Shown here one piece after another: positions 5,151 through 34,746 of a stretch of 47,225 nt of DNA. The DNA is taken from positions 1 to 47,225 of IMG/VR virus record IMGVR_UViG_3300037225_001400, one strand, 5' to 3'. The notes under the pieces were generated by a model, which saw nothing but the letters and a program-made list of their open reading frames with translations, was not told the DNA's origin and did no database searches. How positions within the stretch are numbered: the stretch's first letter is position 1; each line of letters begins with the position of its first letter. A program made the position numbers and the translations under genes. This DNA comes from a virus.

Positions 5151-5238
5151 GAAGAAAATGAAAAAGCTTAAATTAGATATAGTGGATGAAAAAGGAAAGC
5201 CGTTAAAGCGTAAAGGTAATTTCTATGTCAGCAGATAA
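5143..5238 (+). CDS. Very small basic protein (31 aa)
   Basis: The frame runs MRKKKMKKLKLDIVDEKGK to a TAA at 5236-5238. It overlaps the end of the J-like gene by 8 bases and the start of the following tail gene by 14. GGAAG lies just upstream. Eleven of 31 residues are Lys or Arg. It may be a real coupled micro-gene, or simply the leader of the next gene; nothing else supports it. Confidence 0.35.
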   Translation: MRKKKMKKLKLDIVDEKGKPLKRKGNFYVSR

Positions 5239-7300
5239 ATTCATAAATTCGTTGCTTCCAAGAAACATCTTGTTAGCTGATACGTATGAAAAGCTGACTG
5301 GAATTATGCTTGATATAAAAGGCGAGTGGCGTACGCTTATGGATAAGGTGCGTAACGGATACACACTTGATCAGCTTGATGAAACAGAGCTTTTATACCT
5401 TATAAAGTCGTTTAGTTTACGGGAAGTATACGATGCAATGCCTCCATTTTATCATGGCAGTACAACGAATTTAATAGGCGCCACGTATATAGTAGCCCCC
5501 GTAAATAAAATTGCTTGGATGAGGATGTTTCTTGATGTAATGTTGAAGCTCCGTGCCTATATTGGTGTTCCAAATATGATGGATATGGCTATGGGGTTAT
5601 TAGGGGTTAAAGCAGATAAATATGTTATCCAGCAAAATTTTTCTTTTTACGATCATTTAACAGGACAGTATACAATATTGCCGCGTTGGATTTTTTCTAA
5701 GTTAACGCTTGCTGAATTGCTTGTCCTCGGTTATGTTTATTCTCCGGCGCCCACAGTAGCTGAGTTGGCTGATTTAAGTACACCGTTACATTTGCCGACA
5801 GGCGATCATTATGATGTAACGCAAACTATTTCGCTTGATATTCTGGGGTTATCTGTTGCTGATCAGTTAGGCGCAGAGTTTATGCAAGCGTTGAAAACGA
5901 TTGTTTATTTTTTGAAGCCCGTGCATGTAATTATTGAAGATATTAGCCAGGCTGTTTTTCTTTATACAGATAAAATGTATAATATCAATTTGTCACGAAG
6001 AGGCGATTTCTTTAATACAGAATATCGGTTTACTACTTACAAGTTGTTAACGTTAGATGCAGCGACAAATAATGTAACGTGTGCTTCGGGCAGTTTTATA
6101 TCAGATGGGTTTAAACCAAGCATGGTTGTATCTGTGTCTGGGCTTAGTTTGAACACGATTGCAAGTGTAAGAATTACTGCGGTGGGGAATACGTATATGA
6201 CGTTGGAATTAGCTGATGTTGTGTTGTTAAATGAAGGTCCGTTGTGGTGCGGCTTAATTGGAGATTATGATCATAGTTTCCAAGATGCTTTGGTGCCTTT
6301 TGTTGGTAAGTCTGTTATGCTTCATAATAGTTTTCATGTTGTTGGGCCGAATGAAATAACCAGGGGCGTTGGCAGCTTTATTACCGACGGGTTTAAAGTT
6401 GGGTGGCGCGTGATTTCAGCAGGGTTTGCTATAGATGCTAATAATCTTACAGAGAAGCAAGAAGTACATATAACAGCGGTGCATACTATGTCGATTACAG
6501 TAGATAAGTTGACATTAGTGAATGAAGCCATTACAGGTGTAGTTACATTAACGTTGTACGACATTGATGATACTGCCGAGCATACGTTGACCTTATCAAA
6601 GCCTGTAGTAGAAAATACTAGTAATACATTACATCCAGTAGTACATCAGCCAGGAATGGTGCCTACGTTGGCGACAGACGGTTCTTATTTTAGGAAAGGG
6701 CAAGCAAGCAGCCGGTTAGATATTCTTGACACCAGTCATTATAATACGTTAAACGCAAGAGGTGGTGGGCAAGCGTATTTTGGCTTTTGCGTATCTGGAA
6801 GTTTTTCTGTAGCAGCCCCAAATATGGTTTTAAGAAGTACCGGGAGTTGGTTTGATGACGGCTTTGCCATGAGTTTCCTTGTATCAACTAGCGGTTTTGT
6901 TGGCGGGACAAATAATGTAGAGTTTGCTAAAATTATTGCAATGAATGCCACACAGTTGTTTTTAGATGGTGTTAGCTTTACAAGCGAAGGCCCCGTAGCA
7001 AATGCTCAAGTTTGTGTTGATATGATGCCGATTTTGACGCCAATTCCTGCGCCAGTTTCACCTGTGACTTATTATTTTACAGGGGGTCTTGATAGTGATC
7101 CTGCAAAAGACGGCAATTGGAGTACTGTTTCCGGTGGTGTGGGTGATGGAAGGCGACCGACAAGTATTGATACAGCTATCTTTGATTTAGCGTCTCCAAA
7201 TTGTACGCTGACTGCCAATGAAGATTGGTATTATTTGGATACGTCTATGTATGCTTGTATTTTAGATGTAGGTAGTTTTACGTTAAAGTTGGAAGCATAA
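5225..7300 (+). CDS. Tail/baseplate protein, I-like N-terminus with three beta repeats
   Basis: 691 residues. The N-terminal 240 residues are mostly helical; the opening MSADKFINSLLPRN resembles tail protein I (LLP motif), which fits its place after the J-like gene. Three repeats follow, with cores GSFISDGFKPS (about residue 289), GSFITDGFKVG (383) and GSWFDDGFAMS (540). Each is followed by SGF or a similar turn, NN or its equivalent, and a conserved V-N-E-x or S-E-G-P strand about 50 residues later. The C-terminus (TYYFTGG, then DGNWSTVSGG and PTSIDTAIFD) is a module I know from phage tail proteins. In relatives it is followed by beta-solenoid sequence of the kind found here in the next gene. 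It probably links the baseplate to the fibres. Confidence 0.55.
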   Translation: MSADKFINSLLPRNILLADTYEKLTGIMLDIKGEWRTLMDKVRNGYTLDQLDETELLYLIKSFSLREVYDAMPPFYHGSTTNLIGATYIVAPVNKIAWMRMFLDVMLKLRAYIGVPNMMDMAMGLLGVKADKYVIQQNFSFYDHLTGQYTILPRWIFSKLTLAELLVLGYVYSPAPTVAELADLSTPLHLPTGDHYDVTQTISLDILGLSVADQLGAEFMQALKTIVYFLKPVHVIIEDISQAVFLYTDKMYNINLSRRGDFFNTEYRFTTYKLLTLDAATNNVTCASGSFISDGFKPSMVVSVSGLSLNTIASVRITAVGNTYMTLELADVVLLNEGPLWCGLIGDYDHSFQDALVPFVGKSVMLHNSFHVVGPNEITRGVGSFITDGFKVGWRVISAGFAIDANNLTEKQEVHITAVHTMSITVDKLTLVNEAITGVVTLTLYDIDDTAEHTLTLSKPVVENTSNTLHPVVHQPGMVPTLATDGSYFRKGQASSRLDILDTSHYNTLNARGGGQAYFGFCVSGSFSVAAPNMVLRSTGSWFDDGFAMSFLVSTSGFVGGTNNVEFAKIIAMNATQLFLDGVSFTSEGPVANAQVCVDMMPILTPIPAPVSPVTYYFTGGLDSDPAKDGNWSTVSGGVGDGRRPTSIDTAIFDLASPNCTLTANEDWYYLDTSMYACILDVGSFTLKLEA

Positions 7301-7301
7301 T

Positions 7302-8429
7302 ATGAGTTTATTAACAGGCGGAAAATTGACCATGAGTTCCGGCACACTGATTTTGAATAATTCCGTAGCCGGGACGTCGTCGTTAAATGGTTTGGTTTTG
7401 ACATGCGGCACTGGAACGATTCAATGTAAGAAAACAACGGCAATAAATTTGTTAAATCAAGTTTTGTTTAATTTGACAATAGCTGATCCAAGTACAAGTT
7501 GTACGATTTCTGCTGGTCCTAATATTGTGTTAAATGAATTTAAGGTTAATGGTGGTACGTTTAATAGTACCGGTACTTTAGTATTGAAGAAAATCGGCGG
7601 ATTGACGACGACAACAAGTCCGTTGCAGTTTGTCGCTGGTTCGGATATTACAGGCGGGGTTGCCATTACGATTAGAGAGTATGCTGTAATTATTACACCA
7701 GAGTTGAATGGTGCCACAATGGCCTGTTCGTTGTATTTTAGATATGGAACGTCCCCAAGTTTTGCTGGAAAAATAACGTGTGCTTATGCGGAGTTGACAG
7801 GTGATGGGCATGATGCCACACTAACAAGTAATGGTTATAGTATGGCTTTTACTGGGGGCGCGGGGTATGCTTTTTATTGTCATAGAAATGCAGATGCCTG
7901 TAATTTGAATTTAAGTTCCGGTGTTGGCGGAAGTACTGTAATAACGACAAATGGTGTAAAGCTTTCCTGTACCGGTGGGGGAAGTACGTATACGTCAGAT
8001 GGATCAGAACAGTTTATAATAACAGGCGGAAATGTAACAATGTCTGTTGCCGGTACTGTTGCTTGGTTGCAATTGCCAGACCATGCTCATGTTAATTTGT
8101 ATAATGGCGCAACAGTAGGTTCAGTTACTACAGTAGATTGGTTTATTGTTCCAAAAGGTTGCACTGTGCATGGATTAGGACAATGTGGTTGGGATAGCAC
8201 AACGCCGCCAGGACCGCCCACAAGTACTACAAAAACAGTAATTACGTTTTCGAATTTGGAGTGCTGGGGTGGGGCAGGTGCTGATCAGATAACATTTATA
8301 ATGCCTGATTTAGCTGGAGGAAATCCGCATTATTGGAATATTCCATTTCAGTTAGTTGGTGATCATAGTGGTGCTACCGGGTATGTAAACACAGTTGTTG
8401 GCGGAGTTGCTTCAGTATTAGGTTGGTAA
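7302..8429 (+). CDS. Beta-rich tail fibre-like protein
   Basis: 375 residues starting one base after the previous stop (TAATATG). The sequence is almost entirely short beta-strand units with Gly, Thr, Ser and Asn turns (GGKLTMSSGTLILNN, then repeated G-T-V/I-x-C patterns), typical of a beta-solenoid. A Pro-rich hinge (TPPGPPTSTT) near residue 305 precedes a C-terminal domain with PDLAGGNPHYWNIPF. The start reads like a continuation of the module that ends the previous protein, so the two genes may be a split fibre. There is no lyase or hydrolase motif that I can see. Receptor binding or fibre structure is an inference. Confidence 0.55.
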   Translation: MSLLTGGKLTMSSGTLILNNSVAGTSSLNGLVLTCGTGTIQCKKTTAINLLNQVLFNLTIADPSTSCTISAGPNIVLNEFKVNGGTFNSTGTLVLKKIGGLTTTTSPLQFVAGSDITGGVAITIREYAVIITPELNGATMACSLYFRYGTSPSFAGKITCAYAELTGDGHDATLTSNGYSMAFTGGAGYAFYCHRNADACNLNLSSGVGGSTVITTNGVKLSCTGGGSTYTSDGSEQFIITGGNVTMSVAGTVAWLQLPDHAHVNLYNGATVGSVTTVDWFIVPKGCTVHGLGQCGWDSTTPPGPPTSTTKTVITFSNLECWGGAGADQITFIMPDLAGGNPHYWNIPFQLVGDHSGATGYVNTVVGGVASVLGW

Positions 8430-8450
8430 ATTAAATAAAAAGGAGTTGTT

Positions 8451-9236
8451 ATGAGTCAATTATTGTTAACGCCCCACGGAATTTATAAGTATTTTCGCCA
8501 GCTTGTGCAAGGATACACTGGTGCTGGTGTAGAAGCCGACGGCTTTTATATAAATAAGACTGTAGGTACGACTGCAATCAAACAGTTAAAGTATTTTAAA
8601 ATAGGTGTAGGTGGTCCAAATGTTGGAGGAATAACCGAAGAGTTGACTCGTAACTTTTTTGATGCCTATATAAAAAATGGCAACGGTGGAAAAGGTGATT
8701 TGCATGAAGCCGTTTATATTTATGCCATGGGTTCGGGTACAGGCTATGGCGGGGATGATCATAAGAAGGCGTTAGCTGCCGGGAATTTTTATTTATATGG
8801 AAATAGCGTTGATTCAAAAGTTATAGGTGTTCTTGGTATTGAAGCGAATGCGGGAGGAACAGAGTATTGGAATATTCCTGGGGTTGCCTTTCAGGTTGGC
8901 TGCCATCTTTCTTCTGGTGAGGGTAACTGGGACAGCAGCGGAGGTGTGGTTACTCCGCCCGCCGTAAATGCCTTAAATGAAATAGGAATTTATGATGAAG
9001 ATGATATTCTTGTTTTGTACGGTGTATTTCCTGTACAGAATAAGAATGCTACGCTTACTGTAAAAGTAAATAATATATGTATGTTGAAGACGTTGGATTA
9101 TCAGTTGGTAATAAGTGCTGCCCCGACGACTACAAGTTCAACGACATCAAGTTCGACTACAAGTACAAGTTCCAGTAGTTCGACCTCGAGTACAAGTAGT
9201 TCGTCTTCGAGCAGTTCCAGTTCGACAACGCCGTAA
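8451..9236 (+). CDS. Virion-type protein with a Ser/Thr-only C-terminal tail
   Basis: 261 residues with AAAAGGAGTTGTT before the ATG. Residues 1-225 form a Gly-rich beta domain (IGVGGPNVGG, AMGSGTGYGG, TEYWNIPGVAFQVG). The last 36 residues are only Ser and Thr except for the final Pro. The DNA uses many different Ser and Thr codons (tcg, agt, tca, tcc, agc, tct, aca, act, acg, acc), so the tract is not simple slippage and looks selected as protein. Such tails are usually extended and are possible O-glycosylation sites, and a glycosyltransferase-like gene lies 7 kb upstream. Neighbouring fibre genes suggest a virion decoration or fibre. Function unknown. Confidence 0.6.
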   Translation: MSQLLLTPHGIYKYFRQLVQGYTGAGVEADGFYINKTVGTTAIKQLKYFKIGVGGPNVGGITEELTRNFFDAYIKNGNGGKGDLHEAVYIYAMGSGTGYGGDDHKKALAAGNFYLYGNSVDSKVIGVLGIEANAGGTEYWNIPGVAFQVGCHLSSGEGNWDSSGGVVTPPAVNALNEIGIYDEDDILVLYGVFPVQNKNATLTVKVNNICMLKTLDYQLVISAAPTTTSSTTSSSTTSTSSSSSTSSTSSSSSSSSSSTTP

Positions 9237-11934: not shown

Positions 11935-12521
11935 TGCAAAAAAAGATACAAATAACAGACCAATTTAATTTTGATTATTTCACGTCAAGAACGAATGCTC
12001 GCCATCAGTTCTCTGTTGTTCAAAGATTTATGATGCGTCAATGGCACGAAGAATTTAAAAAAGTGTTGAAGTTATTCCCTAAAAATCAGTTCTATAAAGA
12101 CATCGGAATTTTGTTGCCTGAAGATCGTCGGTTGTATGATGTAGAAGGCAGGAACATTCCTGAAACTATTGATCTAAGTTTTGGTCTGCCTGTACGTTTG
12201 AATAAGCCAGATAACAAACAGCTATATGGTGAATGGTTTACGCATGGTGTTGGGGGTGTTCAACTATACACAGAAGGGGCGCAGCCGTTAGCTGACGTGT
12301 TTAAATCCCTTGCAAAGAGGATATATGGGCAAAAGCTCCAGTTCGGTGATCTCTATTATACCAGTGGGGGTAAATTGAAGTTGCCCGTCTTATCTATTGG
12401 TAATAGCAAGTATCTGTTATATCGAGAATATTTTACTTCGAAGTATCTGCCGACTCCCCAGTTTTGGTATTCTACCAATGGCGGCTATACCTTGAAACGC
12501 TATTTGCAATACGCAATGTAA
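11934..12521 (+). CDS. Hypothetical protein (195 aa)
   Basis: The start is taken as the ATG that overlaps the previous TAA; the frame can be extended to a GTG at 11898. The protein is rich in Tyr, Phe and Lys (FNFDYFTSRTNARHQFSVVQ; YLLYREYFTSKYLPTPQFWY), soluble-looking, without Cys motifs. It is the last gene before the first TATTAATA promoter element, so it probably ends the virion transcription unit. No family recognised. Confidence 0.6.
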   Translation: MQKKIQITDQFNFDYFTSRTNARHQFSVVQRFMMRQWHEEFKKVLKLFPKNQFYKDIGILLPEDRRLYDVEGRNIPETIDLSFGLPVRLNKPDNKQLYGEWFTHGVGGVQLYTEGAQPLADVFKSLAKRIYGQKLQFGDLYYTSGGKLKLPVLSIGNSKYLLYREYFTSKYLPTPQFWYSTNGGYTLKRYLQYAM

Positions 12522-12531
12522 AAAGTTGTCT

Positions 12532-12557
12532 CCGAGTAGAAACTGCTCCTATTAATA
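12532..12557 (+). promoter_or_regulatory. Candidate phage promoter: AGTAGA-N9-TATTAATA (copy A)
   Basis: CCGAGTAGAAACTGCTCC followed by TATTAATA, directly after a stop codon and 22 bases before the ATG of the next gene. The same arrangement, with identical 18-base spacing from CCG to TATTAATA, recurs at 13008 and 45466, and a variant at 26201. The core resembles the T4 late promoter TATAAATA. Confidence 0.6.
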
Positions 12558-12578
12558 TGGTATAAGGAGAAGTTGTAA

Positions 12579-12989
12579 ATGCCTCAAATAGTTCCAGTCA
12601 TCGGAGATCGAATACACGTTAGAACAATAAATCCCCGGCGGTCCCGTGAGTGGGAAGTTAAAGGCGTAGTAGTTCAGATAGCTTCCTGCTTTCCAGAGAC
12701 TCGTTTTTTTACGTATCCCGGATTTTCTCATGTTATCCGTACGCGGCCAAATACACGAAAGTTTGTGCTTAAAAAAGAGGATGGTTGGTCTGTATTTTCG
12801 TATTTGCCGGGTTGGTATTCTATTACCATATTGTCGCATAGTGAGGTGCCTATTTTCGATTTGATTCCTGTGGACTATCTATATGTATATGATCGGCCGG
12901 TAGAAGACAGGCCCGCACCAAGAGAAGAATATGTTGACAATTCAGGCTTGCCTGAGTTTCCGAAAACAATTTACGATGCTGATGAATAA
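12579..12989 (+). CDS. MPQ-family small protein, SH3/KOW-like (136 aa)
   Basis: 136 residues; TAAGGAGAAGTTG precedes the ATG, and candidate promoter A lies just upstream. It starts Met-Pro-Gln, like the genes at 13081, 13651 and 13905. The N-terminus (IGDRIHVRTINPRRS, then EVKGVVVQI) matches an SH3-like or KOW-type barrel. It ends in KTIYDADE, almost the same last eight residues as the protein at 13651-13893 (KTIYDADF). Function unknown; it is probably a paralogue in a family expanded by tandem duplication next to the amidoligase gene. Confidence 0.65.
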   Translation: MPQIVPVIGDRIHVRTINPRRSREWEVKGVVVQIASCFPETRFFTYPGFSHVIRTRPNTRKFVLKKEDGWSVFSYLPGWYSITILSHSEVPIFDLIPVDYLYVYDRPVEDRPAPREEYVDNSGLPEFPKTIYDADE

Positions 12990-13007
12990 AAATAAAAAAA
13001 GTAGAGT

Positions 13008-13033
13008 CCGAATAGAAAGTTGTCATATTAATA
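13008..13033 (+). promoter_or_regulatory. Candidate phage promoter: ATAGA-N9-TATTAATA (copy B)
   Basis: CCGAATAGAAAGTTGTCA followed by TATTAATA. It lies 18 bases after a stop codon and 47 bases before the next ATG. The spacing matches copies A and D exactly. Confidence 0.6.
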
Positions 13034-13080
13034 TGTAAAGGTAGTAAAGAAGAAGTTGAAAATAAAATAAGGAGTAGCAA

Positions 13081-13605
13081 ATGCCACAGTCTCTAAAAAA
13101 TCTTTTCAAACGTGTTCGAGTTTCTCTTTTTGGCTTCTGGGTCGGTGATCTGTTAGTTTTTACAGATAGTACGTGTGTAGTATTAGATTGGTGTTTAGGT
13201 GATTGTTGTTTAGTTGTTCCAAGTGATTATACCCATTTGATATTGTTGAAAAATTTGCGTACTGGTAAAACTGGTTATTGGGAAAATAATAATGAATTTT
13301 TTGATTTATACAAAAAGTGTGCTAATTTTAACAGATCTGAAAAGGAGGTGAAGTATATGAAGCTACGGATTTATGATGCAGCGGCTGCGTCCCGTAACGG
13401 TCACCTGACCGGTATTGTTCGCATTCGGCTGATTCGTGATAATCCGCAAACGATCGGGTTGTACGCCGTGAATCATTTGGGCGAAAAAGTGAGTCAGGGC
13501 GGACTGCTGAAGATCAATGCGGACGGATCAATTGTCCGGTGCGCTGGGGTGAATACCAGCCTGGGCCTGAATCTAGAAGCCCCCGGCAAGTTGTCCATCT
13601 CCTGA
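13081..13605 (+). CDS. MPQ-family protein, apparently fused in frame to a GC-rich segment
   Basis: The open frame codes 174 residues from an ATG with AAGGAGTAGC. Residues 1-92 start Met-Pro-Gln and contain WVGDLLVFTDSTCVVLDW, an SH3-like pattern shared with the neighbours; this DNA is AT-rich (18 of 60 G+C at 13201-13260). From about 13370 the base composition changes sharply (35 of 60 G+C at 13381-13440; 34 of 60 at 13501-13560). A perfect ribosome site, AAAGGAGGTG, stands before an internal in-frame ATG at 13357. The 3' part may therefore be a separate gene inserted into, or replacing the end of, this one. The long frame may or may not be translated as one protein. Confidence 0.5.
   Translation: MPQSLKNLFKRVRVSLFGFWVGDLLVFTDSTCVVLDWCLGDCCLVVPSDYTHLILLKNLRTGKTGYWENNNEFFDLYKKCANFNRSEKEVKYMKLRIYDAAAASRNGHLTGIVRIRLIRDNPQTIGLYAVNHLGEKVSQGGLLKINADGSIVRCAGVNTSLGLNLEAPGKLSIS
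13357..13605 (+). CDS. Probable inserted GC-rich gene (82 aa)
   Basis: This internal start has the strongest ribosome site in the area (AAAGGAGGTG, 8 bases before ATG). The 82-residue product begins MKLRIYDAAAASRNG and ends APGKLSIS, with a regular beta-strand pattern (GIVRIRLIRDNPQTIGLYAV). G+C content and codon choice (ctg, cgt, ggc, gcg) differ from all neighbours. It is followed directly by a stem-loop terminator, and the next gene has no visible ribosome site. Own ribosome site plus own terminator is the layout of a recently acquired moron-like cassette. Function not recognised. Confidence 0.55.
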   Translation: MKLRIYDAAAASRNGHLTGIVRIRLIRDNPQTIGLYAVNHLGEKVSQGGLLKINADGSIVRCAGVNTSLGLNLEAPGKLSIS

Positions 13606-13613
13606 TAGTCAAG

Positions 13614-13645
13614 TGCCCGGACGTGAAATACCGGACGGGCATTTT
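13614..13645 (+). terminator. Stem-loop terminator after the GC-rich cassette
   Basis: TGCCCG (13614-13619) pairs with CGGGCA (13636-13641), followed by TTTT. CCGGACG is present as a direct repeat in the stem and loop region. The short T run makes termination strength uncertain. Confidence 0.5.
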
Positions 13646-13650
13646 AAAAT

Positions 13651-13893
13651 ATGCCACAGAATCAAGAACAAGATTTTCAAGTAGGACAAGAAGTCATTTT
13701 TACGGAAGTTGTCCAAGGTGCAACAGATGGTTGGACTGAAGGTGATACTGGTATGGTACTTGAGATTGAACCGCGGTATTTAAAAGTAAAAAGATCAAAA
13801 GATGGCCATATAGAAACGTATTATAAAGAACGTTTTATTAAAGGTGTTCCGCTTCCCGAACCTATAAAAACCATTTACGATGCGGATTTTTAA
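13651..13893 (+). CDS. MPQ-family small protein, KOW/SH3-like (80 aa)
   Basis: 80 residues starting MPQNQEQDF. It contains VGQEVIFTEVV and EGDTGMVLEIEPRYLKVKR, a KOW/SH3-like strand-turn-strand pattern that could bind nucleic acid or peptide. The C-terminus LPEPIKTIYDADF shares KTIYDAD with the protein at 12579-12989. There is no ribosome site between the upstream terminator and the ATG, which fits disruption by the inserted cassette; translation may depend on coupling or be weak. Confidence 0.6.
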   Translation: MPQNQEQDFQVGQEVIFTEVVQGATDGWTEGDTGMVLEIEPRYLKVKRSKDGHIETYYKERFIKGVPLPEPIKTIYDADF

Positions 13894-13904: not shown

Positions 13905-15494
13905 ATGCCACAAGATCGTTGTCCTACGTTTTCAGTTGATGTGGATTCAAGTTGGCCGCCTTCTGCAGCAGCTATGCTTGAGGCGCATTTGCATTGCCCG
14001 CGAGAATCATCAGTGCAGCCAAAGTGTCGTTATTTTGGTTTGCGCCCTGATTATATTGATCCTTATTATGATAATACGAATGTGTATAGCGACATATTTA
14101 GTAATGCTGTAAACTACGGTATACAAGTAAAAGAAGTAGATTCCATATATAATTTTGTGACTCGTGAAGATCATATTTTATGTAATATACATGTAAATGA
14201 TCGGGTACATTTTATAAGTTTTTATGATGGTCAGTGGACACGAGAGGTAGCTAAAATTTGTGCTTGGTTTCCCTTTTATGTAGAACTGCGTCATGGTGGG
14301 TATGAAATCTATACAAAAAGTATGCATAAGTTTGTGCCAGAAAAAAGTACTTGGGTATATGATACAAGAACCGGAGAAATAATTACTCCAGATCGTTGCT
14401 GTTGCGGCGAGTTTGTTCGTTGTTTTGTAGATACCGCATACGGGGAAGTTAGGTTGCGTTACTATTGTCCGAAATGCGATTGTCAACGTGTATGTAGTCA
14501 TTGTGGTAAGCCGTTGCATACAATAAAAAATGTTTTAAGTGTACCGCAAAAGCATAAGAAGCTATGCGATGAATGTCAAAAAAGTTTTCGTTTTTGTGAT
14601 TCTTGTCGAGAGTTGTATAATTATAAAGATATGGGCGGCGATGATGTCTCCCGATGTTACTGGTGTAAGCCTATTAGGGATTATAGCCATAAGCCTAAAG
14701 TAGTGTTGCACGGTTCCGAAGAATTCCAATGCGGGATAGAAGTAGAAGCTGAATTGCTTGAAAGTGATAAAGAATTACAAACAATAGATTTACAGTATTG
14801 TGCTGGTTCCGATTCAATTACTGCTATAGCTCGTATGGTGCAGGATAAAAGTAAAGGTTTTCTATTTTGTAAGCATGACGGATCGTTACAGGATGGGCCC
14901 GGTATTGAAATTGTCAGTCAGCCCGCCCCGTTATCCTGGTGGAAAACGTGCCAGGAAAAAGAGATAATTTTTGAGTTACCCAAATATGGAATGCGTTCGT
15001 ATGATACGGTTTGTTGCGGGATGCATATACATATGAGTAAGAAAGCTTTTTCCTCTTGTCATCTTTACAAAATGCAAAAACTTTTGTACGAAAGCCGGGA
15101 GTGGATGTATGCCATATCTCAGCGGAAAAATCGTCCGGAGTTGTCTAGATGGGCACAGTGTTCGGTGGATGAACGTGAGAAAAAAAGGTTAGTGCAAGTT
15201 GCCAAGAAAAAAAGTTCGGAAGGGTATTTTGAACGGCGGATGGGGTTAAATTTGCAGCCCAAGGATACTGCGGAATTGCGTATATTTAAAGGGACGTTGA
15301 AGAAAGAGTCCTTTATGAAGAACCTTGAGTTTGCTGATGCTACGTATAGTTACACAAAACAAGCTGGAATGGAAGAGGTTTCCATAAAGAAGTTTGGCGA
15401 ATGGTTGATAAAAAATAAAAAGATGTACAAATATTTGTATGATTTTATGGATGCTAAAAAAATATTGGAAGGAGTGAAGCCGCCATGTGCCTAA
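13905..15494 (+). CDS. GS-like amidoligase (Amidoligase_2 type) with SH3-like and zinc-ribbon regions
   Basis: 529 residues; AAAAGGAGAAG before the ATG; begins Met-Pro-Gln like three upstream genes. Residues about 85-145 hold an SH3-like segment (VNDRVHFISFYDGQWT). Residues about 165-255 are Cys-rich, with CCC, C-P-K-C-D-C, C-S-H-C, C-D-E-C, C-D-S-C and C-Y-W-C pairs, so probably several zinc ribbons. Residues about 275-480 match the amidoligase pattern: FQCGIEVEAELL (first-strand acidic residues), KHDGSLQ with GIEIVSQP, CCGMHIHMS (CG-x-H-x-H), and a late GLNLQPKDTAELRIFKGT segment. This superfamily joins an amine to a carboxylate using ATP. The class II amidotransferase next door could supply ammonia. 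The substrate is unknown. Family call good, role speculative. Confidence 0.7.
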   Translation: MPQDRCPTFSVDVDSSWPPSAAAMLEAHLHCPRESSVQPKCRYFGLRPDYIDPYYDNTNVYSDIFSNAVNYGIQVKEVDSIYNFVTREDHILCNIHVNDRVHFISFYDGQWTREVAKICAWFPFYVELRHGGYEIYTKSMHKFVPEKSTWVYDTRTGEIITPDRCCCGEFVRCFVDTAYGEVRLRYYCPKCDCQRVCSHCGKPLHTIKNVLSVPQKHKKLCDECQKSFRFCDSCRELYNYKDMGGDDVSRCYWCKPIRDYSHKPKVVLHGSEEFQCGIEVEAELLESDKELQTIDLQYCAGSDSITAIARMVQDKSKGFLFCKHDGSLQDGPGIEIVSQPAPLSWWKTCQEKEIIFELPKYGMRSYDTVCCGMHIHMSKKAFSSCHLYKMQKLLYESREWMYAISQRKNRPELSRWAQCSVDEREKKRLVQVAKKKSSEGYFERRMGLNLQPKDTAELRIFKGTLKKESFMKNLEFADATYSYTKQAGMEEVSIKKFGEWLIKNKKMYKYLYDFMDAKKILEGVKPPCA

Positions 15495-16792
15495 TTATTA
15501 GTAAGCCCAAAGGTGTTGTGTTGGAAAAAAGCCTGTACGAAGCTTGTTGGGATAATAACCCTGACGGCTCAGGTTTCTTTTGGCACGATGGTTGTATTCA
15601 TGTAAGAAAGGCTTTTGGAAAGTTTGAGACGTTTTGGAAGCAGCTAGCTGAATTAAATCAAGTTGATCATAGTATTGTGTTTCATTTTAGGTGGGCGTCG
15701 CATGGGGCAAAGAGTTTAAGGAATTGTCATCCTTTTACGTTAAAGAAGCACGGTATGGTGTTTTGTCATAATGGTGTGATTAATAAAGTTCAATATGATG
15801 CCGTAAAATCGGATACCTTGATGTTTGCCGAAACCATTTTGGAGCAGCTTCCAGTAGGATTTTTATATAATAAAGCAATTGTTTCCTTGATAGAAGATTT
15901 TATTGGGTGGTCGAAATTAGTATTTATGGATTCGACTGGAAAAATTATGGGGGTAAAAGCTAAAGATGGTGTAGAAGATTTAGGTTGTTGGTTTTCCAAT
16001 ACCGGTTATAAAACTAAAAAGTACATATCTCCGGCAGGGGGTTATGCGTCAAAAGAGTTTTGTGTGTGTTGTGGGAAGAACCCGCCCATGACAAAATACG
16101 CTTCTTTGTGCGCTTGGTGTAATAAGTACGCGGTTTGGGATGCCGTAAATTATGGGTACATGTTACCAGAAGATAAACCGTTGCCCCTATGTCCTGTTTG
16201 TAAGAAAGCTCCAGTTCCCGAGCCCGAACGTTGGTGTTCTGCTTGTTTGAAAACTATACAGCCTGTTGTAAAAGAAGGTGAGCAAGGAGAAGTTAAGCAT
16301 AATGATACCCTTTGGTTTGTTGCCCATAAAGAAGACTCAAAAATACAAGGGTGGCTTATTGGGGAAGAGGTGTGGTTGGATGCAGCAGATACAGGTTATT
16401 ATCAAGTACAACGGAAACGGGATATGTTGCGTTTTGGTCTCCCCAAAGAGTGTTTTAGCATCGTTCCGTTGTTGGAAAAAGAAAATAAAATGTTGGATAA
16501 AGAAGATGACTTAGCCCCAGGCACGAAAATATATTTCCAGAAACATTTAGGTGATTCTGTTAAGCAAGGTTTTGTAATTGGGGAGGAGTTGTCGTATCAA
16601 GGTGTTTTACGTTATGAAAATGGTTTGGTGGAATGGCTTGTAGGGAAGTTGTCCGGGGGCGAATTTCTTTTTGCTAATAAAGGTTGCTTTTCTTTGTCCA
16701 AGCCCACAGAAAGTTCAGTTTTGTTATTAACTGAAGATGCGATTGCCCAGTTGTCGAAGGAAACAAGTCAGCGTTATGAAGGGGATGTATGA
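15485..16792 (+). CDS. Class II glutamine amidotransferase with zinc ribbons and SH3-like repeats
   Basis: 435 residues, overlapping the amidoligase gene by 10 bases, with AAGGAGTGAAG upstream. The protein starts MCLIIS, so removal of Met exposes the Cys nucleophile of an Ntn-type glutaminase. DNNPDGSGFFWHDG, FHFRWASHG and FCHNGVI match the class II GATase core (residues 1-180). Two CxxC pairs follow (FCVCCGKNP, LCAWC) and two more (LCPVCKKAP, WCSAC). The last 180 residues have two SH3-like segments (NDTLWFVAHKED; GTKIYFQKHLGD). It is expected to release ammonia from glutamine for the adjacent ligase. GATase domains also occur with QueC in phage deazaguanine pathways, an alternative partner. 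Confidence 0.72.
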   Translation: MCLIISKPKGVVLEKSLYEACWDNNPDGSGFFWHDGCIHVRKAFGKFETFWKQLAELNQVDHSIVFHFRWASHGAKSLRNCHPFTLKKHGMVFCHNGVINKVQYDAVKSDTLMFAETILEQLPVGFLYNKAIVSLIEDFIGWSKLVFMDSTGKIMGVKAKDGVEDLGCWFSNTGYKTKKYISPAGGYASKEFCVCCGKNPPMTKYASLCAWCNKYAVWDAVNYGYMLPEDKPLPLCPVCKKAPVPEPERWCSACLKTIQPVVKEGEQGEVKHNDTLWFVAHKEDSKIQGWLIGEEVWLDAADTGYYQVQRKRDMLRFGLPKECFSIVPLLEKENKMLDKEDDLAPGTKIYFQKHLGDSVKQGFVIGEELSYQGVLRYENGLVEWLVGKLSGGEFLFANKGCFSLSKPTESSVLLLTEDAIAQLSKETSQRYEGDV

Positions 16793-16998
16793 TACAAGAA
16801 ATAGAAGCAACAGATGTAATAAAAGCGGCGTTGTTGTTGCATGCCAAAGTATTTATAAAGTATATTAAGGATCAAAATGTTGTTGGGTGGGTTGTTTGTT
16901 TGAAAAGCGAACCAGCTATTTATTTTGATATTTTTGAGAAGAAGAAAGAAGCCAAAAAGTATGTAAAAGAGCATGGTTTAATTTTAGTAAAGGAGTGA
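16789..16998 (+). CDS. Hypothetical protein (69 aa)
   Basis: 69 residues; its ATG overlaps the amidotransferase stop (ATGA). It begins MIQEIEATDVIKAALLLHAK and ends with a Lys-rich helix (EKKKEAKKYVKEHG). It could be a small partner of the amidoligase pair, given the coupling. No family recognised. Confidence 0.6.
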   Translation: MIQEIEATDVIKAALLLHAKVFIKYIKDQNVVGWVVCLKSEPAIYFDIFEKKKEAKKYVKEHGLILVKE

Positions 16999-17001
16999 TG
17001 T

Positions 17002-17841
17002 ATGAAGTATTTACTTTTCTTGTTTTTGTTTGTGGCGCGGTTGTTTAGTGCGACGCAGCATATTTGTTATGAAGATAGTATGCAGGTGCATGCTTTTTTA
17101 GTAGCTAATAGTATGAATTCTGTTCCCGTTAATACCGTGGCTTTGCCTAATTCATTTTTTACAACATGCACAAAATGTGGGGGTTGGAGGATAGCTAAGT
17201 TGTATTTGTCTCCAGGTAAAGTGTATGCGTCCGATGGCGCTATAAAAGCGTTGCCTGCAAAATTAACGAATGTTGACATGCACCAGATATATGTATATTG
17301 TACGTTTTGTTGGGAAATACATTTAAGAAATAACAGCTTAACAGCAATGCCCGATGCTTGGTGGGAATGGCCATATGCGACTAATGGCATGTATATGGAT
17401 GTACGGAATAATAATTTGGTTGATACTACGTTGCTGCAGGGAATAGGTTGGATATATACAAATCATTCGTTTAAAATAGATGTAGATAGTAATAATTTGT
17501 GCAGTTCTGATAGCATTGTTCAACAGTGGTTAGCCAGTTGTTCGCGTGACCCTAATTGGCAAGCAACGCAGTTAGGATGCGTTTCCAGTAACGAGCGGCC
17601 AAGTAAAAATACAATCCAGTTTTTTGTAGGTAGCAATGTACAGTATACCTTGCAAGAAAGCGGCCCGGTTAGCATTCTCCTATCAGATATACTTGGAAAG
17701 AAAACCATGTTGTTTGATCGGTATCAGCAGAAAGGCCAGTATGAAATAAGTTGGCAAAAGCCCAGTACTGCAGGTGTGTACTTTATAAAATATACTGCGG
17801 GGAAAAATAGCCAAGTTGTAAAGTATGTTAACGTAAAATAA
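17002..17841 (+). CDS. Secreted leucine-rich-repeat protein with a T9SS (Por) C-terminal sorting-like domain
   Basis: 279 residues with AAAGGAGTGATGT before the ATG. MKYLLFLFLFVARLFSATQH is a typical signal peptide, with cleavage likely after FSA. Residues about 70-165 contain LRR-like units (LHLRNN-type: IHLRNNSLTAMP, MDVRNNNLVD, IDVDSNNLCSSD), with four Cys in two C-x2-C pairs (CTKC, CTFC). The C-terminal 75 residues (VQYTLQESGPVSILLSDILG, then GQYEISWQ and AGVYFIKYTAG, ending VVKYVNVK) match the Por secretion tail/FlgD-like beta-sandwich used for export by the type IX system. The protein would be exported by the infected host, perhaps altering its surface. It is the last gene before a strong terminator. 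Confidence 0.7.
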   Translation: MKYLLFLFLFVARLFSATQHICYEDSMQVHAFLVANSMNSVPVNTVALPNSFFTTCTKCGGWRIAKLYLSPGKVYASDGAIKALPAKLTNVDMHQIYVYCTFCWEIHLRNNSLTAMPDAWWEWPYATNGMYMDVRNNNLVDTTLLQGIGWIYTNHSFKIDVDSNNLCSSDSIVQQWLASCSRDPNWQATQLGCVSSNERPSKNTIQFFVGSNVQYTLQESGPVSILLSDILGKKTMLFDRYQQKGQYEISWQKPSTAGVYFIKYTAGKNSQVVKYVNVK

Positions 17842-30117: not shown

Positions 30118-30519
30118 GTGGAACAAAAAAAGAAAAAGTTAACAATAATTGACAAGCTCAATTGCGTTTTTACTAAGCAAAGGCTTACTAAGGAGGAACT
30201 TAGTAGAGACGGTTATATGTTGTTACGTTTCCTGTCAATGAAACCAGAGTATACGGATACGATGAATAAAATACAAAAGTACCAAGGTGTTTTAGGACAC
30301 CGGTTGTTTGTTCTGTTGCAGCATCTTTTTTCAGAGAAGGATCGCGCCCCTTTCTTGGAGTATGTTAAGGGCAAGGAAAAGGAGTACAAAAGCCTTTCAG
30401 AAAAATCGCTACTTATTTTAAAGAATCTTTTTAAAGTGAGTAAAAGTAGGTTGGAAGAGTATATTCCGAACCTTTGGTGCACCGATGAAGAAATTAAAGA
30501 AATCTGGGGATTACAATGA
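30118..30519 (+). CDS. Probable clamp loader small subunit (gp62-like)
   Basis: 133 residues from a GTG; the ATG three bases earlier leads to a short frame. The segment GYMLLRFLSMKPEYTD matches the conserved block of short gp62-like phage subunits (M-x-x-R-x-L-S-x-x-P). SKSRLEEYIPNLWCTDEEIK resembles their C-terminal K-A-x-E-x-L-x-x-L-T-x-x-x-L-x-x-I helix pair. It would join the gp44-like ATPase to load the clamp. The match is from memory of family patterns and should be treated as probable only. Confidence 0.5.
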   Translation: MEQKKKKLTIIDKLNCVFTKQRLTKEELSRDGYMLLRFLSMKPEYTDTMNKIQKYQGVLGHRLFVLLQHLFSEKDRAPFLEYVKGKEKEYKSLSEKSLLILKNLFKVSKSRLEEYIPNLWCTDEEIKEIWGLQ

Positions 30520-31232
30520 ACACACTAAGAGTATCTGAAACATTTTTGTCGATTCAGGGTGAAGGCGCTTCCATGGGCCGGCCCGCTATTTTTCTTCGCT
30601 TGCAAGGATGCAACTTAAATTGTCATGGGTTTAGTGGCGGGTGTGACACTCTATCAGTATGGAAGCAAGGAAAGGAAATGACATTTGAAGAGATTTACGA
30701 TTATTGGAACGAGTCTGGTTGGATAACAGCATATAGCCCTGTTCGTAGGATAATTATAACCGGCGGCGAGCCTTTATTACAAGGTAATAGCGTTGTCGAT
30801 TTTATTCAATTTTTAAATGATAAAGGTGATTGGAAATTTGAAATAGAGACAAACGGAACAGTGTGGAACGATTTGTTGGAATTGTATGATGTGCAGATAA
30901 ACATAAGTCCAAAATTAATTAGTAGCGGTGTACCTTTAGAGAAGCGTTATGATGTTGACGTGTTGAAAGAGTTTGCTTATTTGAAGCATTGCGCGCAAAA
31001 TCCGCAGTGGAAGTTTGTTATTCAAGAACAAACGGATGTAGTTGAAGTGCAAGAGAAGTTTGAAAAGGATTTAGGTATAAGTAGAAGTAATATTTGGTTT
31101 ATGCCCGAAGGCATTGGTTCGCCAAGCCTTAATAGAGTAGCTGAATGGTTAGCGCCTCTTTGCGCAAAGTACGGATATAATTATTCAGATAGAATACAGA
31201 TACGAATATGGGGAAATAAACAAGGAGTTTAA
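30516..31232 (+). CDS. queE: 7-carboxy-7-deazaguanine synthase
   Basis: 238 residues, ATGA overlap. FLSIQGEGASMGRPAIFLRL is the QueE start. The radical-SAM cysteines are CNLNCHGFSGGC, spaced CX3CX6C rather than the usual CX3CX2C. IIITGGEPLLQ is the SAM-binding glycine motif, and FEIETNGT follows. It rearranges 6-carboxytetrahydropterin into CDG. It supplies the deazaguanine pathway together with FolE and QueD downstream. Confidence 0.9.
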   Translation: MNTLRVSETFLSIQGEGASMGRPAIFLRLQGCNLNCHGFSGGCDTLSVWKQGKEMTFEEIYDYWNESGWITAYSPVRRIIITGGEPLLQGNSVVDFIQFLNDKGDWKFEIETNGTVWNDLLELYDVQINISPKLISSGVPLEKRYDVDVLKEFAYLKHCAQNPQWKFVIQEQTDVVEVQEKFEKDLGISRSNIWFMPEGIGSPSLNRVAEWLAPLCAKYGYNYSDRIQIRIWGNKQGV

Positions 31233-31544
31233 ATGACAAAAATTAAAGGTCTTGGCATGAAGAAAGTTCCAGAAATAACAATAGTAATTGATGAAGAAAA
31301 ACGGAAAGGAATTTGTAAACATTGTGGGGCAGATTGTGAGGAGAAGCAGTTTACTATGATAGAGAAGAGAGAAAAAGGTAAAGATAGGTATAGGCGATTG
31401 GTGACAGGTGTTCCAATACCCGCGTTATGTAAGCGATGTTCAACTATGTTTAAGCAAAAAGAAGAATATTTAATCAGGGATATTACGTTAAAGTGTAAAA
31501 AGTATTATGAAGAAGAATTTCATAAAGTAGGTATTTCTGTCTAA
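31233..31544 (+). CDS. Cys-rich hypothetical protein (103 aa)
   Basis: Starts right after the QueE stop, with AAGGAGTTTAA before it. CKHCGADC and CKRCSTM, about 38 residues apart, form a probable zinc ribbon; the first pair is followed by an extra Cys. The protein is Lys-rich. No assigned function; clustered with the modification genes. Confidence 0.55.
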   Translation: MTKIKGLGMKKVPEITIVIDEEKRKGICKHCGADCEEKQFTMIEKREKGKDRYRRLVTGVPIPALCKRCSTMFKQKEEYLIRDITLKCKKYYEEEFHKVGISV

Positions 31545-31692
31545 TAGTTTCAGAACAAAAGATCATAATAAGCCGCCCAAGCATTATAAGGTGATGCAAA
31601 AGAGGAAGAGGCGTGCTAAAATGCGGCAAGCTCTTAGGGTAGGTAAGGAGCCCCAGGAGTTTAAAAAAACTGATACCTGGGATTGGAACTAA
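31537..31692 (+). CDS. Small basic protein (about 51 aa) with an uncertain start
   Basis: No ATG, GTG or TTG begins the likely N-terminal part; the frame is open from a stop at 31531-31533, and a CTG at 31537 or the internal GTG/ATG at 31591-31594 are the options. The product is basic and ends in FKKTDTWDWN, preceded by HYKVMQKRKRRAKMRQALR. This basic helix plus aromatic-Asn end is a pattern I associate with small phage proteins of unknown role. Coding is supported by the pattern only. Confidence 0.45.
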   Translation: MSNSFRTKDHNKPPKHYKVMQKRKRRAKMRQALRVGKEPQEFKKTDTWDWN

Positions 31693-31693
31693 G

Positions 31694-31969
31694 ATGGGAA
31701 TGAGTCCAAGTTTTCGTGAAGCAGGAAATGCAGTAATAACCAGTTACGGACAAAAAGAAAAAACCATAGTTGAGCTGTCTGACGAAAGCCTTTCGTCAAT
31801 GATTGCAGGAACAAGAAAAGTTATTGAGCAAAAGAAAGAATTTTTGAAGGCTAAGTTTTTACCAGGGAGTCTTGGGGAGAAGCTGAAAATGACTTTGGAG
31901 GATACCATTATAAAACGTAAACTAAGACTGCAAGAGTTGTTAAAAGAGAAGGAGAGAAGATGCCTGTAA
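31694..31969 (+). CDS. Hypothetical coiled-coil protein (91 aa)
   Basis: Starts MGMSPSFREAGNAVITSYG. The rest is strongly helical with charged heptads (RKVIEQKKEFLKAKF; LEDTIIKRKLRLQELLKEKE), probably a coiled coil. It overlaps the phosphoribosyltransferase gene by ten bases, which carries GAGAAGGAGAGAAG as its ribosome site. Function unknown. Confidence 0.55.
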   Translation: MGMSPSFREAGNAVITSYGQKEKTIVELSDESLSSMIAGTRKVIEQKKEFLKAKFLPGSLGEKLKMTLEDTIIKRKLRLQELLKEKERRCL

Positions 31970-32400
31970 AAGATAATATGCATTGGGAGATAGTACAAAG
32001 TAAAAGAAAGCGCATATTGAAAGAGCCTTGGGAGAAAATTCCTGTGGTATTAGATCATTTTGTACGCCGGCTTGCTATAGGTACGCCTTTTGCTTGGCCA
32101 GACTGCAAAGGTATTTATGCTGTGCCTCGTGGTGGTCTTGTTTTGGGTGTTGCTTTGTCAAATAGGTTGCATATGCCTTTGCTGGCTGCTCCGACTGATA
32201 ATTGTGTAATTGTTGAAGACATAATTGATAGTGGAACGCAAATGGAAGCCATGTATAATCAGTATATAAAAATAAACAAAGCAATGTTATTAGTTTGGTA
32301 TATTAATCCTATGTGTAAGAAATATTTAAACAGAAAGAATGTAGCTTGTTATGATAAAGTATCAAAAGATACGTGGGTTTCTTTTCCTTGGGAGTCTTAA
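31960..32400 (+). CDS. Xanthine-guanine phosphoribosyltransferase-like enzyme
   Basis: 146 residues. IYAVPRGGLVLGVALSNRL corresponds to the E. coli Gpt segment AVSRGGLVPGALLARELG, VIVEDIIDSGTQM is the PRPP-binding loop, and SKDTWVSFPWES matches the Gpt C-terminal DTWIEQPWDM. It should transfer a phosphoribosyl group from PRPP to a purine-like base. Salvage of guanine or xanthine is the known reaction; in this cluster a deazaguanine base could be a substrate, but nothing in the sequence shows it. Confidence 0.75.
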   Translation: MPVKDNMHWEIVQSKRKRILKEPWEKIPVVLDHFVRRLAIGTPFAWPDCKGIYAVPRGGLVLGVALSNRLHMPLLAAPTDNCVIVEDIIDSGTQMEAMYNQYIKINKAMLLVWYINPMCKKYLNRKNVACYDKVSKDTWVSFPWES

Positions 32401-32628
32401 ATGATTAGATTAAAAAGTTATCGCGTGAATGAAAAAGAGTTGCGGATGTATTACCCCGATTCTCAGTTTACTGTTGTGTGTGCGGAGGAAGTGCTTTCTT
32501 GTTGGATAGCGCTTGTCTTTTTGGATGGTAAGACGTTGGAGATTCCTTGTGAAGATGAAGTTGAGCAAGAAGCGTTGCTACATGAATTGGACTATCTTTA
32601 TTTTGCTGATCGGAGAGAAGAACAATGA
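32401..32628 (+). CDS. Hypothetical protein (75 aa)
   Basis: Starts directly after the previous TAA. Product MIRLKSYRVNEKELRMYYPD onward, acidic in its C-terminal half (EIPCEDEVEQEALLHELDY). Overlaps folE by four bases (ATGA). No family recognised. Confidence 0.5.
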   Translation: MIRLKSYRVNEKELRMYYPDSQFTVVCAEEVLSCWIALVFLDGKTLEIPCEDEVEQEALLHELDYLYFADRREEQ

Positions 32629-33212
32629 AAGTTTTTAATGAATCCCACGTACAGTTTGCCATTAAAGAATTGCTTATAGGTTTAGGGGTTAGTTTACGAG
32701 ATCCAAATTTTAAAGATACCCCAGCTCGGGTAGCTCGTAGTTATGCTGAAATTTTCAGCGGCTTGTATGATACTGAAAATAAGTTGAAAGAGATTTTTAA
32801 AGCCTCGTTTCCAAGTACTTATACAGGCATGGTGATTGTTGATAATATTCATTGTTTTTCTATGTGTCCACATCACCTGCTCCCAGTGGAATATTTTATA
32901 AAAACTGGCTATATAGCTAATAAGAAGATGTTAGGCTTGTCTAAGATTCCGAGAGTAGTTGAGTTGCTTGCTAAGAGGCCGGAATTGCAGGAAACGTTTA
33001 CGCAAGATATATGTGACACGTTGAAGTCGTATTTGAATCCGGCCGGTGTGATGGTGGTTGTTCATGGGTCACATAATTGTTTGCGTATGAGGGGTGCTAA
33101 GAAGGAAGATGCTGTTATGGTTACTAGTAGCATTTCAGGTAAGTTTACGCGGCCGGAAGTGCGCGCGGAGTTTCTTAGTTTGATAAAAAGTAAACAATTA
33201 GAAATTCAATAA
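32625..33212 (+). CDS. folE: GTP cyclohydrolase I
   Basis: 195 residues. CFSMCPHHLLPVEY holds the zinc ligand Cys and catalytic His residues; GLSKIPRVVELLAKRPELQE is the family helix; HGSHNCLRMRGAKK supplies the second Cys ligand, and SGKF follows. It converts GTP to dihydroneopterin triphosphate, the first step toward 7-deazaguanine. The N-terminus is short compared with E. coli (222 aa) but the core is complete. Confidence 0.92.
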   Translation: MKVFNESHVQFAIKELLIGLGVSLRDPNFKDTPARVARSYAEIFSGLYDTENKLKEIFKASFPSTYTGMVIVDNIHCFSMCPHHLLPVEYFIKTGYIANKKMLGLSKIPRVVELLAKRPELQETFTQDICDTLKSYLNPAGVMVVVHGSHNCLRMRGAKKEDAVMVTSSISGKFTRPEVRAEFLSLIKSKQLEIQ

Positions 33213-33221
33213 AGGATTTTT

Positions 33222-33674
33222 ATGTATTTAATTAAAAAGCAATTGAAAGATTTTTCGTATGCGCACCGCTTAACAAAGGGATATAAGGGAAAGTGCGCTG
33301 CAACACATGGGCATAGCGGGCATGTTAAAGTTGTGTTGGCTTCGCAGCATTTAGATGAGTTTGACATGGTAATTGATTTTAACGAGCTTAAGATGTTTGA
33401 TGATTGGATACAAGAAAATTTAGACCATACTTGGTTAGTTCATGATGAAGATGACGCGCCTACGGATAAAGAATATGTTATGCGTTTTAGTCGAATGCCT
33501 ACAGCGGAAGGAATTGCGCACGAACTGTATTGTGTATTTTGTGACATGTTAAATGAAAAAGAAGGTAGTAACGTTGTGCTTATTGAAGTGGAGGTTTGGG
33601 AAACAGACAAATGTTCCGCTGTATATACTGAGCAACAGTATCGAAAAGAATATGAGGATGATAATGAGGAATAA
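33222..33674 (+). CDS. queD: 6-carboxytetrahydropterin synthase
   Basis: 150 residues. FSYAHRL gives the first zinc His; YKGKCAATHGHSGHV gives the catalytic Cys and the His-Gly-His ligands; DMVIDFNELK and LDHTWLVHD are the usual QueD/PTPS blocks. Glu in the C-terminal EVEVWETD binds pterin. It turns dihydroneopterin triphosphate into 6-carboxytetrahydropterin for QueE. It overlaps the DpdA-like gene by 11 bases. Confidence 0.92.
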   Translation: MYLIKKQLKDFSYAHRLTKGYKGKCAATHGHSGHVKVVLASQHLDEFDMVIDFNELKMFDDWIQENLDHTWLVHDEDDAPTDKEYVMRFSRMPTAEGIAHELYCVFCDMLNEKEGSNVVLIEVEVWETDKCSAVYTEQQYRKEYEDDNEE

Positions 33675-34746
33675 ACTATCCTACGTAGTCGCCGGCAGTG
33701 AAGCCCTTTTCCGGAACGGGCAATGGGTTTTTGATCTCAAGACCATGCCCGTAGATGTTTATTTGTATAATGCGACTTGTTACGTGGGCGGTCGTTCCAT
33801 AAATGACGCCCTTGAGCAAAAGAAGCAAGCGAACGAGAAGGGCAAGTTAATGATGTGCGATTCCGGTGGCTTCCAGTTTGCTACTGAAGTTGTTAAGGAC
33901 CTTGATCCAATCGGCATTATAGAAATACAGAATCGCATTGCAGACTTGGGTTTTATCCTTGATATAAGTACCTCGCGAAGGGTGAGAGGAGCCGGAGCAA
34001 GTGGGTTGGAACTGGATAGCTCTGATAGCTGGCACCAGCATTGTCTTGAACGTACGCAAAAGCATATTAGGGCCGCAAAGGATGTTGAAAAGAAGTTCAA
34101 GTATTATGCTGTCATTCAAGGTGCCACGTATGATCAAGCCCAAAAATGGTGGGACGGGATTAAAGATGAAGACACCTACCAGGGTGTTGGCACAAAACGA
34201 GATTTGTTTGAGCAGATTTTGTTCGGTTGTATGATGATTGATAAAATGCCAAGTATAAAGTACCATCATATTTTAGGGTTGGGGGCGACAAATAAAATGT
34301 TGTTGCTTCGGTACTTTTATCTTTGTAGTAAAAAGGATATGGTCTTGATAACGATGGACAATACCAGCCATGTACAATATGCAAAGTATATGCAGTTGAA
34401 GCTGCCTTTTTCTGGTTGTTGCTATTCTAAGACAAATGATCTGAAAGGGTTTGAAGAATTGTCTGGTTTGAAGTTTAATCAATACGATATCGGGGAAGTA
34501 ATGTTTACCAGTATACGAAATATTTATTTTGATGCTTTGCATGTTAATATGATAAATATGTTGGATACTGCCGATTCTGTTAAGGATTTTATTGATAAGA
34601 ATTTCCCCCAGCTCATGACGTATGTCAATGCCATTGACGATTATTTCGACAAAGGTTTTGAGTACGTGACAAAGCGTTACTTTCAAAGTACCGAGAAGCA
34701 TGAAGTCCACAAGCAGAAAAGCAGCGCCTTAAGTTTTCTGAGTTAA
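33664..34746 (+). CDS. dpdA: DpdA-like DNA deazaguanine transglycosylase (TGT superfamily)
   Basis: 360 residues from the ATG at 33664 (MRNKLSYVVAGSEA); a nearby ATG at 33658 is also possible. LMMCDSGGFQFATE carries the TGT-type D-S-G-G-F-Q active-site strand; KYYAVIQGATYDQ matches the V-Q-G segment, and ILGLGATNKM the Gly-rich phosphate-side loop. DpdA swaps guanine in DNA for preQ0 or a related 7-deazaguanine. The call is strengthened by queE, folE and queD immediately upstream. No queC is in the window. Confidence 0.85.
   Translation: MRNKLSYVVAGSEALFRNGQWVFDLKTMPVDVYLYNATCYVGGRSINDALEQKKQANEKGKLMMCDSGGFQFATEVVKDLDPIGIIEIQNRIADLGFILDISTSRRVRGAGASGLELDSSDSWHQHCLERTQKHIRAAKDVEKKFKYYAVIQGATYDQAQKWWDGIKDEDTYQGVGTKRDLFEQILFGCMMIDKMPSIKYHHILGLGATNKMLLLRYFYLCSKKDMVLITMDNTSHVQYAKYMQLKLPFSGCCYSKTNDLKGFEELSGLKFNQYDIGEVMFTSIRNIYFDALHVNMINMLDTADSVKDFIDKNFPQLMTYVNAIDDYFDKGFEYVTKRYFQSTEKHEVHKQKSSALSFLS

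Follow-up and report, generated by a model that had tools for sequence, protein, structure and literature searches.

Two overlapping genes in a 47,225-base virus contig (the window, meaning the whole stretch of DNA that was analyzed) encode a predicted amidoligase and a predicted glutaminase. Do they form a working two-subunit enzyme, what might it act on, and is such a system new to phages? The genes concerned are as follows.

13905..15494, + strand: P0001, predicted amidoligase; 529-aa ORF with an N-terminal region (1-185), zinc ribbons, and a GS-fold domain (about 270-529)
15485..15494, + strand: P0001/P0002 overlap ATGTGCCTAA, 10 nt
15485..16792, + strand: P0002, predicted class II (Ntn) glutaminase; 435-aa ORF with a catalytic domain (1-180) followed by a C-terminal extension
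16789..16998, + strand: 69-aa gene, joined to the glutaminase end by an ATGA overlap
17002..17841, + strand: 279-aa protein; its start resembles a signal peptide, its repeats look LRR-like by eye, and its C-terminal sorting domain (Por/T9SS) is a weak match

An earlier note on this DNA had described three ORFs, an overlap of the first two, and an ATGA link to the 69-aa gene, and a check of the coordinates bore this out. Within the 10 nt of the overlap, ATGTGCCTAA, the glutaminase starts (ATG-TGC) and the amidoligase ends (TAA stop); an overlap of this length is found at 16 related loci. A ribosome-binding site of the AAGGAG/AAGGGG type lies directly 5′ of each of the three genes (13905, 15485, and 16789). 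The 279-aa gene is probably on the same transcript, because it begins only 3 nt after the 69-aa gene. No close relatives of P0001, P0002, the 17002 protein, or the 20023 gene were found in viral contigs.

P0001 is a PF12224 amidoligase, predicted to be an ATP-dependent carboxylate-amine ligase with a glutamine synthetase (GS) fold. It scores 27.6 bits against the Pfam profile PF12224 (Amidoligase_2; curated cutoff of 22) and also matches PHROG families, among them one annotated as amidoligase; 30 of 37 members of the amidoligase family match PF12224 at E ≤ 0.01. In an AlphaFold2 model built from a 37-sequence alignment, the catalytic domain (about 270-529) is mostly confident, and its best PDB matches by Foldseek are GSs and YbdK. 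Whole-chain TM-scores are low because both proteins of the pair have long low-confidence parts (P0001, 1-150; P0002, 245-415). The family profile aligns weakly to GS (E about 0.1) over the GMHxHMS...IExRF motifs, which in GS contain metal and phosphate ligands; E, H, and E-x-R motifs of this metal/phosphate type are present in the P0001 GS fold (E279, E281, E335, H374, E457, and R459). Within residues 188-254 are CxxC pairs that resemble zinc ribbons, starting at 188, 197, 221, 231, and 251. The description of P0001 as a GS-like amidoligase with zinc ribbons, offered earlier from the sequence, agrees with the profile score, the GS/YbdK fold match, and the CxxC pairs.

The partner protein, P0002, is a predicted class II (Ntn) glutaminase beginning Met-Cys, as had also been proposed. 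Its match to PF13230 (GATase_4) is a marginal pass (23.2 bits; cutoff of 23), and its matches to GlmS models reach 3e-10 yet fall far below their curated cutoffs. Residues 1-180 are predicted with a pLDDT of about 96, and the top Foldseek matches of this catalytic domain are the glutaminase domains of GlmS, EgtC, and PurF; the C-terminal extension is modeled without confidence. The catalytic residues are Cys2, Arg69, His73, Asn96-Gly97, and Asp110. Two zinc-ribbon-like CxxC pairs lie in 193-254, and such pairs recur in both families: 77 of 97 amidoligases and 60 of 106 glutaminases have at least two. A crude hydropathy test showed no transmembrane-like segment in either protein.

Loss of catalytic residues had been named beforehand as refuting the proposal; instead, the recognized residues are intact and invariant in 37 amidoligases (G277, E279, E281, D325, E335, G372, H374, R407, E457, and R459) and in 43 glutaminases (M1, C2, R69, N96, G97, and D110), the latter aligning to the GlmS glutaminase. 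Judged by these residues, both enzymes of the pair look active.

The second finding that the earlier note had asked for was co-occurrence of the two genes in other genomes. Viral contigs were scanned with the glutaminase alignment only, and the amidoligase was sought afterwards. A first scan yielded 80 glutaminase loci, 79 of them with an amidoligase, and a second scan yielded 67 additional loci, 64 with an amidoligase, for a total of 143 of 147. At the four viral loci without an amidoligase, the glutaminase lies 36 to 333 nt from the contig end, i.e., the locus is cut by the edge. The two genes are on the same strand and ≤150 nt apart at 133 of the 143 viral pair loci, and the amidoligase comes first at 129. 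Contigs from bacterial genomes carry the pair at 18 of 21 glutaminase loci; the only exception not obviously due to a contig end or a chimeric match is L110 (bacterial, 1xD8-48), where a glutaminase at 7887-8915 has no amidoligase. The converse was seen in at least one phage, AR1086-1, which has an amidoligase and no detected glutaminase of the P0002 family. At locus L109, from an Atopobiaceae MAG, both domains lie in one 681-aa open frame (5173-7218) with an internal ATG-TGC; either gene fusion or loss of a stop codon could explain this.

Such near-obligate co-occurrence, together with overlapping frames, argues for functional coupling of amidoligase and glutaminase. Pairwise distances in the two gene trees are correlated beyond permutation yet weakly (r = 0.30; rho = 0.17), with long branches; partners may therefore sometimes be exchanged. 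In relatives the pair lies in early/replication regions. Clustering of neighbors revealed no substrate gene conserved beside the pair, nor any conserved biosynthetic neighbors apart from ATP-grasp and gamma-glutamyl cyclotransferase (GGCT) genes.

The pair had been put forward as an undescribed system. This does not hold: proposals and annotations from 2009-2013 onward already place it in a phage peptidoglycan-modification cassette, and it is present in the LUZ24, RIO-1, and phiEco32 records. It was described in LUZ24-like phages (PMC3890496, PMC3517423) and, in RIO1-like phages, within a named "Peptidoglycan Modification Cassette" (PMC5498523); the citing literature traces the proposal to Iyer 2009 and Hardies 2013 (PMC5498523, PMC3890496). 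Iyer et al. 2009, as cited in PMC10580990, saw in the phiEco32 genes a cell-wall modification against superinfection; the Marvin paper, as cited there, suggested a different role (secondary metabolite or nucleotide precursor). Marvin itself carries the annotated pair, as do OM43 phages (PMC10580990).

Our results indicate that the window copy is a divergent, reduced member of this known phage module, catalytically intact as far as its sequence can tell. As in the window, the cassettes of phiEco32, LUZ24, RIO-1, and PSA-HP1 hold both enzyme classes in one cluster near early/replication genes, although the sequence similarity of the window pair to those of phiEco32, LUZ24, and RIO-1 is remote. 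A second amidoligase (PF14395, COOH-NH2 ligase), an ATP-grasp enzyme, and GGCT complete these three full cassettes; none of them was detected in the window. PF14395 had no match in the window or in 35 relatives, with a model that recovers just two of three positive controls and misses RIO-1. A Pfam search of the window found neither GGACT nor RimK, and more sensitive ATP-grasp and GGCT profiles built from neighbors found no match near its pair. Pfam GGACT was found in all three full cassettes versus 2 of 36 pair records; with the neighbor-built profiles, an ATP-grasp homologous to LUZ24 gp21 lies within 2.5 kb of the pair at 40 of 171 loci, and GGCT at 9 of 171. This patchiness suggests that the pair is a shared core and that accessory enzymes come and go.

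Methylophilales (OM43) phages MEP401 and MEP402 and their marine relatives have the same gene order, and the 10-nt overlap of MEP402 is exactly that of the window. Identity in the glutaminase domain is 35 to 38%, but the glutaminases of this group are about 290 aa and lack the long C-terminal extension, and some members, unlike the window, have GGCT or ATP-grasp next door. In Mycobacterium phage Marvin and its kin, too, a PF12224-type gene lies next to one for a class II GATase, and the invariant residues are the same as in the window; however, these genes are 25 to 28% identical to the window pair and have an 81-nt gap in place of the overlap.

The 69-aa gene, which the earlier note had listed after the pair, has no homologue beside the pair in the related loci compared, the LUZ24, RIO-1, and phiEco32 cassettes included; LUZ24 and phiEco32 also have a small gene after the glutaminase, but these look unrelated to it, and we dropped the gene as a third component. 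The same note had seen an SH3-like family around the pair (12579, 13651, and the P0002 C terminus) that might supply substrates or adaptors: the likeness is plausible by eye, but we detected no significant sequence relationship, so neither the family nor that role was retained. A profile of the small downstream proteins of the marine relatives did not reach the window proteins convincingly. The small proteins encoded at 12579-12989 and 13651-13893 both start MPQ and end PKTIYDADE and IKTIYDADF, respectively; sequence around the ends of their genes recurs (76% over 38 nt), and an intergenic repeat of 45 nt (78%) occurs at 12515 and 12991. These repeats around 12515-13893 are possibly shared regulatory DNA. 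The 279-aa protein is not part of the conserved module; its Por/T9SS C-terminal sorting domain scores 17.4 bits, below the cutoff. It hints at a surface-exposed product, and the weak T9SS tail and secreted look suggest a Bacteroidota- or Fibrobacterota-type host. PADLOC gave no match to a known defense system.

What, then, does the pair do? Amide-ligase chemistry is well supported by the profile matches and predicted structures. Because of the two enzyme classes, we infer a path from glutaminase to ammonia to an ATP-activated carboxylate to an amide; coupling of ammonia to carboxylates, already suggested as the likely chemistry, is supported by the folds, the retained catalytic residues, and the co-occurrence. 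We favor, with a probability of about one-half, a two-subunit glutamine-dependent amide ligase whose ammonia caps an ATP-activated carboxylate of host peptidoglycan precursors. The N-terminal Cys of P0002 would hydrolyze glutamine to ammonia, presumably passed on to P0001; P0001, with Mg-ATP, would phosphorylate the carboxylate, and ammonia would displace the phosphate, turning -COOH into -CONH2 (or a related amide). The acceptor would be a D-Glu or diaminopimelate carboxylate on cytoplasmic precursors, and the modified envelope would act against rival phages or tune lysis.

A peptidoglycan-precursor acceptor is suggested by the published proposals and by the linked ATP-grasp and GGCT genes: accessory enzymes of gamma-glutamyl/peptide chemistry occur near the pair, evidence that is contextual. 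The lack of transmembrane-like segments in either protein is consistent with cytosolic precursors. Bacterial precedents exist for glutamine-dependent amidation of wall carboxylates (AsnH, LtsA, AsnB, and MurT-GatD); AsnH and LtsA share with the window an N-terminal-Cys class II glutaminase, but all of these are chromosomal and have an asparagine-synthetase or Mur-ligase fold rather than that of GS (general background; see also PMC3885529 and PMC3267633). In L. casei, cell-wall acceptors are the targets of AsnH, which carries a class II glutaminase domain at its N terminus; loss of AsnH confers 10^4-fold resistance to phage J1 (PMC3885529). Against peptidoglycan, zinc ribbons occur in both subunits and would fit a macromolecular partner equally well, and the hosts of the pair (which include mycobacteria, Coriobacteriia, and Gram-negatives) differ in wall chemistry; a further point against it is that no ATP-grasp (RimK), GGCT, or PF14395 match was detected in the window.

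The same chemistry could instead be directed at a host or phage protein, docked by the zinc ribbons and extra domains, with amidation of a Glu, Asp, or C-terminal carboxylate serving host takeover. We regard this as a tentative second choice: besides the recurrent zinc ribbons, the extensions differ between lineages, as docking regions would, the ATP-grasp of RIO-1, LUZ24, and phiEco32 carries the annotation S6-type (RimK-like) glutaminyl transferase, and the pair occupies early/replication regions of relatives; however, no substrate gene is kept beside the pair, and GGCT is harder to explain with a protein as target. Somewhat more doubtful is its extension to a widespread phage system in which zinc-ribbon docking would let the pair amidate specific carboxylates (Glu/Asp or C-terminal) of a host protein in the course of infection. 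To our knowledge, glutamine-fed protein amidation has not been described in phages. Amide or gamma-glutamyl bonds might also be made on a small metabolite (a secondary metabolite or nucleotide precursor), as suggested for mycobacteriophage Marvin (cited in PMC10580990) and in keeping with YbdK-like (carboxylate-amine ligase) fold matches and GGCT neighbors; we think this unlikely, given that conserved biosynthetic neighbors other than ATP-grasp/GGCT are lacking. It is quite improbable that P0001, P0002, or both have lost catalysis or moonlight, e.g., as a scaffold or decoy: similarity to characterized enzymes is low (27.6 bits for P0001 and 23 bits for P0002), but the catalytic residues are invariant across very diverged relatives.

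If the favored peptidoglycan proposal is true, phages would have in this pair their own equivalent of MurT-GatD or LtsA, deployed in phage-phage competition. The two genes are linked at more than 140 diverse viral loci, and their role so far is a proposal first made in 2009. Stripped to two genes, the reduced form presents the core reaction on its own and offers a simpler target for reconstitution than the seven-gene podovirus cassettes.

The window also carries 7-deazaguanine pathway genes (30516-34746).

30516-31232: QueE
32625-33212: FolE
33222-33674: QueD
33553-34746: diverged TGT/DpdA-like gene

QueC (PF06508) was not found in the window record, so the window DNA may carry 7-carboxy-7-deazaguanine (CDG) or depend on host QueC. 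Conceivably the pair replaces the missing QueC by amidating CDG, a carboxylate, to ADG for 7-deazaguanine DNA modification; in archaeosine synthesis, class II GATase domains do function in the form of Gat-QueC (PMC6884629). We consider this reading very improbable, since 14 kb separates the pair from the que genes, QueC could come from the host, and QueD was found in only 1 of 36 pair-bearing records, namely the window, many of the records being fragments. The QueD count is a strong, not absolute, indication that the pair family cannot depend on QueD, and we rejected deazaguanine DNA modification as a general role. The TGT-family search misses even the window's own diverged TGT-like gene. Close to that gene, the family A DNA polymerase looks split, judging by translations only, into adjacent overlapping ORFs at 34752-36530 and 36523-37341.
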